Origin: Thioalkalivibrio sp. ALE14
GTDB taxonomy: Bacteria; Pseudomonadota; Gammaproteobacteria; Ectothiorhodospirales; Ectothiorhodospiraceae
DNA length: 64,000 nucleotides
Assembly (NCBI RefSeq): GCF_000376845.1
Contig: NZ_AQXY01000030.1
Coordinates: 186,001-250,000 of the forward strand
Direction of reading: 5' to 3'
A program made the translations under genes and the position numbers. Shown in pieces: positions 53,335 through 55,233 of this stretch; position 1 is the stretch's first letter, and every line of letters begins with the position of its first letter. The notes under the pieces are model-generated. The model saw only the letters and a list, made by a program, of their open reading frames with translations, ran no database searches and had not been told where the DNA came from.

Positions 53335-54201
53335 TCAGTCCTCGAAGGCGGCGCGGATGCGCTTGATCGCGTTGTTCTCGATCTGGCGGATGCGTTCGGC
53401 CGAGACGCCGTATTCCGCGGCCAGCTCGTGCAGCGTCGCCTTCTGGTCCGCCATGTAGCGGCGCATCAGGATGGTCCGGGCGCGCTCGTCGAGCTCGCCC
53501 AGGGTCTGGCTCAGGCGTTCCTGGTAGTGGCGGTCCCAGTCCTCGTCCTCGGTCACGTGCGCCGGGTCGTCGCTCAGGTCCTCCAGGCTCAGGCGCTCGG
53601 ACGGGGCCTGATAGCCCTGCTCGTCGTCGGCCTCCGGGCCCGGATCGAAGCTCGCGTCCTGGCTCGACAGGCGACGCTCCATCTCCCAGACGTCCTTCTC
53701 CGAGACGCCCAGGTCCTGCGCGACGGCGGAGACCTCGGCGTTCGACAGCCAGCCCAGGCGCTGCTTGGCGCTGCGCAGGTTGAAGAACAGCTTGCGCTGG
53801 GCCTTCGTGGTCGCGACCTTCACGATGCGCCAGTTGCGCAGGATGAATTCGTGGATCTCGGCGCGGATCCAGTGCACCGCGAAGGACACCAGGCGCACGC
53901 CCTGATTCGGGTCAAAGCGACGCACGGCCTTCATCAGGCCCACGTTGCCCTCCTGGATCAGGTCGCCCAGCGGCAGGCCATAGCCCTGATAGCCACGCGC
54001 GACGTGGATCACGAAGCGCAGGTTATGCAGGATCAGCTGGCGCGCGGCGTCCAGGTCCTGGCGCTCGTGCAGCGCCACGGCCAGTTCGCGTTCCTGTTCG
54101 ACGTCGAGTACCTCGATGCGGCCAACGGCCTGCATGTAGTGATCGAGGTCGCCCACCGGTACGGGCATGTCGACGCGCGGGGTGGTCAGGGCCTGGGTCA
54201 T
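53335..54201 (-). CDS. rpoH: RNA polymerase sigma-32 (heat-shock) factor
   Basis: The 288-aa sigma70-family factor has region 2 LILHNLRFVIHVARGYQGYGLPLGDLIQEGN split across about 62-92, then GLMKAVRRFDP. The RpoH box QRKLFFNLRSAKQRL is near 125-139, and region 4 ends in SAERIRQIENNAIKRIR. The start is set at 54201 because GGAGG lies 11 bases upstream; the in-frame ATG at 54225 would place that site inside the coding sequence. A near-perfect CIRCE element lies 33 bp upstream of the start. It is downstream of ftsYEX, the classic gammaproteobacterial arrangement. Confidence 0.96.
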   Translation of the reverse strand: MTQALTTPRVDMPVPVGDLDHYMQAVGRIEVLDVEQERELAVALHERQDLDAARQLILHNLRFVIHVARGYQGYGLPLGDLIQEGNVGLMKAVRRFDPNQGVRLVSFAVHWIRAEIHEFILRNWRIVKVATTKAQRKLFFNLRSAKQRLGWLSNAEVSAVAQDLGVSEKDVWEMERRLSSQDASFDPGPEADDEQGYQAPSERLSLEDLSDDPAHVTEDEDWDRHYQERLSQTLGELDERARTILMRRYMADQKATLHELAAEYGVSAERIRQIENNAIKRIRAAFED

Positions 54202-54234
54202 GCGTGGTGATACCTCCGGATTCATTACTCTAGG

Positions 54235-54261
54235 TTAGCAGTCTATTGATAGGAGTGCTAA
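54235..54261 (-). promoter_or_regulatory. CIRCE element (HrcA operator) in front of rpoH
   Basis: On the rpoH strand the sequence reads TTAGCACTC, nine bases (CTATCAATA), then GACTGCTAA. The CIRCE consensus is TTAGCACTC-N9-GAGTGCTAA, so 17 of 18 arm bases match. It lies in the 102-bp ftsX-rpoH gap. HrcA bound here would repress rpoH until heat or unfolding stress titrates GroEL away from HrcA. Confidence 0.85.
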
Positions 54262-54303
54262 ACCCTGTAAAAGTTCCGGCCGTTTTTGCCAACCCGTGCC
54301 TCT

Positions 54304-55233
54304 TTACGGCGCATCGCGCAGGGCATGGCCGCTGCCCAGGCGGGCCCCCAGCCAGCCGAGGAGGAGCCCGGCCAGCAGCAGGGTCAGGAGGTGGGCGCCC
54401 CCGGGTAGCGCCAGCCCGAATTCGAGGTCGAATGCGGCGGCCGCCTGTTCCAGGGGCGCCCGACTGAGCCCGATCCCGATCAGGAGCAGGATGCCGGCGA
54501 AGATCCCCCCGCCCAGGCCGGTGATCAGGCCGCCATAAAGCGACGGGCGGCGCAGAAAGCCGTGGGTCGCACCGCTGATCCGCGAGATGGCGATCTCCTC
54601 GCGTCGCTCGCGCAGTTCCGAGGCGGTTGCCAGGGCCAGGATCAGCAGTGCGCCCAGGCCCAGCAGCCCGCCGACCACCGCCAGAATGCGCAGCCCCAGC
54701 TGATGCAGGCTGTTCAGTTGGCGCACCCATTCATCGTCGCTGACAACGGTTGCTCCGGGCGCACTGGCCGCGAGCGCCTCGCGCAGCGCCGCCACCGTCT
54801 CCGGGTCGGCCGTGGCGGGCACTACGTCCACCACGTCCGGCAGCGGGTTGTCGTCCAGCCAGTCCAGCAGGCCCGGGTCACGGAGGCCGTCGCGGTAGGT
54901 GGCCAGGGCCTCGTCGGCATCGATCCAGGTCCAGCGCTCTACCCGCGCATCGGTCTCCAGATGGCGTTCGAGATCCGCGACCGCGCCCGCCTCGACCTCG
55001 TCGAGGTAGAGGGCGATGCGCGGGTCGTGGTCGACATGCGCGGACAACGCCCGGGCATTGTCCAGCAGGACCCACAGGTAGGCCGGGAGGGCGAGGATGA
55101 AGCCCAGCACGGCGATACTGATCAGGCTCAGGACCGGGGCCTGCAGGCGGCGCTGGAGGCTGCGCCGGGCGGCATCCCGGTGGGCCTCCAGCCAGGCCGG
55201 GACGACATCCTGCAGGCGGCGCGCCGACTTCAT
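54304..55233 (-). CDS. ftsX: Cell-division protein FtsX
   Basis: The 309-aa permease-like protein has four helices. The first is near 38-58, then a periplasmic PLD domain of about 110 residues with DPRIALYLDEVEAGAVADLE, then three helices from about 185 and LRERREEIAISRISGAT at the coupling loop. With FtsE it links the Z-ring to septal murein hydrolase control. It overlaps ftsE by four bases. Confidence 0.95.
   Translation of the reverse strand: MKSARRLQDVVPAWLEAHRDAARRSLQRRLQAPVLSLISIAVLGFILALPAYLWVLLDNARALSAHVDHDPRIALYLDEVEAGAVADLERHLETDARVERWTWIDADEALATYRDGLRDPGLLDWLDDNPLPDVVDVVPATADPETVAALREALAASAPGATVVSDDEWVRQLNSLHQLGLRILAVVGGLLGLGALLILALATASELRERREEIAISRISGATHGFLRRPSLYGGLITGLGGGIFAGILLLIGIGLSRAPLEQAAAAFDLEFGLALPGGAHLLTLLLAGLLLGWLGARLGSGHALRDAP

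Follow-up and report, generated by a model that had tools for sequence, protein, structure and literature searches.

A predicted HrcA operator interlocked with a putative sigmaE promoter upstream of rpoH in Thioalkalivibrio sp. ALE14 and other Gammaproteobacteria

The rpoH locus

The stretch of the Thioalkalivibrio sp. ALE14 genome that was analysed, hereafter called the window, comprises 64 kb. On its reverse strand it carries a gene whose product matches the model TIGR02392 above the cut-off, and which is beyond doubt the gene for sigma-32, rpoH (Table 1). Judged by RpoH, the closest named relative is Thioalkalivibrio sp. AKL19 (99 % identity). The genes upstream of rpoH are ftsX, ftsE and ftsY, with approximately 100 bp between ftsX and rpoH. 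The likely start codon of rpoH is the ATG with its A at 54201, which has GGAGG upstream of it. An alternative in-frame ATG farther upstream, at 54225, is missing in the aligned locus of a relative (L007), whereas the downstream ATG and the GGAGG do align there.

A palindrome, TTAGCAGTC-TATTGATAG-GAGTGCTAA in forward-strand reading, lies exactly at 54235-54261, upstream of rpoH. It agrees with the 9-N9-9 inverted repeat of CIRCE (TTAGCACTC/GAGTGCTAA), the operator of the repressor HrcA, at 17 of the 18 arm bases, and is separated by 33 bp from the preferred ATG. The initial annotation had described a CIRCE element here, and its position, arm match and distance from rpoH were all confirmed. This was the only site with at most three mismatches to CIRCE in the window, and no such site appeared in 100 dinucleotide shuffles of the window.

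Table 1 Features of the rpoH region, in window coordinates
Feature	Position	Strand	Remarks
ftsX, upstream neighbour of rpoH	54304..55233	-	TIGR00439 E 3e-61, under the model cut-off
sigmaE-type -35, GGAACTT	54271..54277	-	starts 16 bp upstream of the operator
CIRCE operator (predicted)	54235..54261	-	towards rpoH TTAGCACTC-CTATCAATA-GACTGCTAA; single mismatch, in the right arm
sigmaE-type -10, TCCTA (TCNNA)	54250..54254	-	formed by two bases at the end of the left arm and three of the spacer; N16 to the -35
Predicted sigmaE transcription start	54243..54244	-	placed by spacing only
Possible extended -10, TGC-TAACCT	54232..54240	-	overlaps the right arm; weak by consensus in the window
Ribosome-binding site, GGAGG	54213..54217	-	from the sequence; aligned in relatives
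rpoH, sigma-32	53335..54201	-	288 aa from the preferred start; TIGR02392 384 bits, NF005143 402 bits

HrcA, RpoE and further CIRCE sites in the genome

The 3.02-Mb genome contains three CIRCE-like sites with up to three mismatches, located at groES, rpoH and hrcA. The hrcA gene, whose absence would have spoken against the initial annotation, is present. A CIRCE with one mismatch lies 61 bp before groES. The HrcA product scored above the cut-off with both TIGR00331 and PF01628, and its DNA-binding and C-terminal domains were found. The site at hrcA (G000:C24:62417-62443), with its three mismatches, reaches to within about 6 bp of the start codon. It is probably a weak site, and because of these two features autoregulation of hrcA-grpE may be weak in ALE14.

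The genome also encodes RpoE, scoring above the cut-off, next to a protein with the N-terminal domain of RseA (an RseA-type anti-sigma factor). A full-form sigmaE motif was not seen upstream of rpoE in the ALE14 genome, so the sigmaE consensus applied here is a presumed one for ALE14.

Conservation of the predicted rpoH operator and its association with hrcA

The palindrome, which the initial annotation expected to recur in close relatives, was found upstream of 45 of 45 checkable rpoH genes of the family. Among 30 distinct family loci the arms were almost invariant, and the flanks and the greater part of the spacer varied freely.

A sample of 140 gammaproteobacterial genomes, approximately one per family, was searched for CIRCE with at most three mismatches within 400 bp upstream of rpoH. 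The site was present in 90 of 98 genomes with hrcA (approximately 92 %) and in 5 of 32 genomes without it. The association has a Fisher p of 5e-16, a value which serves as a guide only, since the families are related and p is overstated. Base-shuffled rpoH upstream regions from the same sample never came below four mismatches. Among named genomes the site was found in 32 of 33 with hrcA, compared with 2 of 17 without; the latter 17 include the Halomonas, Pseudomonas, Marinobacter, Chromohalobacter and Endozoicomonas genomes searched. The predicted operator at rpoH is the usual state in Gammaproteobacteria with hrcA and not peculiar to ALE14, and the class sample ruled out an oddity of one lineage.

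The exceptions ran in both directions. Eight of the 98 class-sample genomes with hrcA lack the site, and five of the 32 without hrcA keep it with 0-3 mismatches (G177, G213, G110, G206 and G161), three of these with 0-1 mismatch and a completeness of at least 97 %. In these five, hrcA may have been missed or recently lost, or another protein may read the palindrome. Such genomes are the one point in favour of regarding the palindrome as a chance occurrence or as the site of a different regulator, which we find barely credible: chance was ruled out by the shuffles of the window and of the class-sample upstream regions, all three sites in the ALE14 genome are at HrcA-type genes, and palindrome and hrcA strongly co-occur.

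Outside the Gammaproteobacteria but within the Pseudomonadota, 36 of 38 rpoH upstream regions had no site, the other two having a candidate with three and four mismatches, respectively. A spread of the rpoH operator through the remaining Pseudomonadota was not seen in these regions.

When 63 CIRCE sites were sorted by the gene downstream, 62 were found before groES, hrcA or rpoH, and one, at a contig end, was left without an assigned gene. On this distribution rpoH looks like a core, regular target of HrcA in the Gammaproteobacteria.

HrcA could bind at rpoH and still be of minor or redundant importance if the main promoter lay farther upstream, for example by read-through from ftsX, in which case the operator would have little effect on sigma32. 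The short distance from ftsX, the mismatch carried by the operator in the genus Thioalkalivibrio, and the control of sigma32 largely after transcription in E. coli all agree with this. We nevertheless regard it as unlikely, as both arms are strongly conserved while their surroundings diverge, and the operator is kept in approximately 92 % of the families with hrcA.

A predicted sigmaE-type promoter interlocked with the operator

The sequence GGAACTT-N16-TCCTA (54277-54250) is the only full match to GGAACTY-N15-17-TCNNA in the 64-kb window. A scan of the window with the sigma70 consensus called no promoter.

The same register recurs across the class, with GGAACTT or a similar sequence at an almost constant distance upstream of the rpoH CIRCE. 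Among the 90 rpoH sites from families with hrcA, 54 (60 %) have a sigmaE -35 in register (-17 to -14), where shuffles predict 0.4 sites, compared with 0 of 35 groES sites and 0 of 14 hrcA sites. A TCNNA -10 was present at 77 % of the rpoH sites versus 11-14 % of the groES and hrcA sites, and TAANNT, which together with the TGC before it is similar to an extended -10, at 81 % versus 9 % at groES and 50 % at hrcA. The commonest -10 at rpoH is TCTAA, that of the window being TCCTA. In the 30 family loci the conserved columns beyond the arms are GGAAC, spacer bases 2-3 and a T three positions past the right arm. The groES operator is arranged differently: it lies just downstream of a sigma32/sigma70-like promoter (CTTGACT-N13-CCCCTATTA), following its -10, whereas the rpoH operator contains the sigmaE-type -10. 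The CIRCE at rpoH thus appears to be interlocked with a predicted sigmaE promoter, and its right arm perhaps with a second, extended -10-like element.

The register also bears on whether the palindrome acts within the leader RNA of rpoH, as a hairpin or thermosensor, and not as a DNA operator. CIRCE sequences are able to form a stem-loop, and E. coli sigma32 is under the control of an mRNA thermosensor, both of which speak for such an element. Transcripts from both predicted promoters would, by the register, start within or after the palindrome and leave the left arm untranscribed. Furthermore, 59 of 63 arm changes are one-sided, 25 of these breaking a pair, with only four two-sided, and the presence of the palindrome tracks hrcA. 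An Rfam search at the locus gave no match that reached threshold. With most arm changes one-sided and many pair-breaking, an RNA leader element was rejected and is considered very improbable.

In three loci from genomes without hrcA (L187, L142 and L084) the palindrome has decayed and the sigmaE-type promoter or its GAACTT is still in place, which fits loss of the repressor first and of the operator later.

A search for the composite pattern in 397 Pseudomonadota genomes returned 14 matches, 11 at rpoH, two at groES and one at clpB; the sample seems to hold many groups that lack the operator, which limited the value of the search. The clpB match is in genome G158 (L381 1500-1660), where a sigmaE-type/CIRCE composite with perfect arms precedes clpB and the site is missing at rpoH, an apparent move of the target from rpoH to clpB.

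Proposed regulation of rpoH

We consider it very likely that 54235-54261 is an HrcA operator within the rpoH promoter, through which HrcA would repress rpoH until GroEL is titrated. RNA polymerase with sigmaE would use GGAACTT-N16-TCCTA, the -10 of which spans the left operator arm and the spacer, and a housekeeping extended -10 promoter perhaps overlaps the right arm. With HrcA on CIRCE, the -10 of the sigmaE promoter and that of the possible housekeeping promoter would both be covered and rpoH kept low. Once GroEL is taken up by unfolded protein, HrcA would become inactive, and groESL and rpoH would be released together. Sigma32 would then drive the chaperone genes, and newly free GroEL would restore HrcA. 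The dependence of HrcA on GroEL is established in Bacillus subtilis; for ALE14 we infer this dependence, together with HrcA binding, the use of the promoters and the transcription start.

The initial annotation had proposed that HrcA control of rpoH joins two heat-shock circuits. The HrcA operator at rpoH is upheld by its sequence features and by its tracking of hrcA. The number of circuits is not: since the operator forms part of a sigmaE-type promoter, three would meet at the site, namely HrcA/GroEL, sigma32 and sigmaE.

A broader reading, to which we give an even chance, takes the rpoH control region of hrcA-bearing gammaproteobacteria for an ancient composite switch, a single HrcA operator being interlocked with sigmaE and housekeeping -10s. 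Two things would then be required for sigma32 synthesis, a promoter signal (envelope stress or growth) and the loss of spare GroEL, and the loss of hrcA in lineages like those of E. coli and Pseudomonas would have removed the gate, leaving control after transcription.

Textbooks, following E. coli, describe sigma32 as regulated chiefly at the post-transcriptional level and HrcA as acting in parallel on groESL and dnaK. From the arrangement described here, the two heat-shock systems usually called parallel look wired in series, with envelope stress feeding the same switch. Should the operator function in the way its anatomy implies, a GroEL-sensing repressor governs sigma32 synthesis, on a sigmaE promoter, in most of the gammaproteobacterial families that have hrcA. 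E. coli would then be a derived case, and the circuit would combine a feed-forward loop and two feedbacks (HrcA on rpoH and groESL, sigma32 on groESL, GroEL on HrcA). A two-base change of the operator would also make chaperone homeostasis directly testable.

Relation to known systems

The predicted system shares its operator, its repressor and presumably the GroEL feedback with HrcA/CIRCE at groESL, as in Bacillus, Agrobacterium, Caulobacter and many others, from which it differs in that the target in ALE14 is a sigma factor gene. Promoter P3 of E. coli rpoH is sigmaE-dependent and Pseudomonas rpoH is under AlgU, the motif being of the GAACTT-N16-TCTGA type. Transcription of rpoH from a sigmaE promoter, predicted in ALE14, is common to all of these; in E. 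coli, which served as control, and in the named Pseudomonas genomes searched, however, both HrcA and the operator are absent.

Ueki and Lovley (2007) reportedly studied RpoH of Geobacter sulfurreducens, and earlier comparative-genomics work is said to have addressed the same question and may already name rpoH as a CIRCE-bearing gene in some gamma- or beta-proteobacteria. For G. sulfurreducens, Rodionov et al. (2004, PMC545781) predicted a CIRCE upstream of rpoH, at 51 bp from the start codon, and other sites at groESL and hrcA-grpE-dnaKJ. According to the sections of that paper used here, a single genome of their set had the rpoH site. Operator and target gene are the same as in ALE14, but G. 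sulfurreducens belongs to another phylum, its site has perfect arms, and those sections of the paper (PMC545781) describe no interlock with a sigmaE promoter. In a study of Xylella, HrcA and rpoH were discussed as separate inputs to groESL (PMC3224663). Within the full-text literature covered, which did not extend to Permina and Gelfand (2003) or Ueki and Lovley (2007), no description was found of an rpoH CIRCE in Gammaproteobacteria, of a class-wide rule or of the interlocked promoter. The new part seems to be the interlock of operator and promoter, in an arrangement that is ordinary within the class and seems little recognised.

Variation of the operator arms

In the phylum sample, two more gammaproteobacterial families (L322 and L329) have GGAACTT followed by CIRCE at rpoH, and in L322 both CIRCE arms are altered symmetrically (TTAGCAGTC...GACTGCTAA). 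The right-arm change from GAGTGCTAA to GACTGCTAA (54241 in the window) is shared by the rpoH sites of many relatives and of distant families. The groES sites of the genus Thioalkalivibrio have GGGTGCTAA or GGCTGCTAA, compared with GACTGCTAA at rpoH. The half-site preference of HrcA may have drifted.
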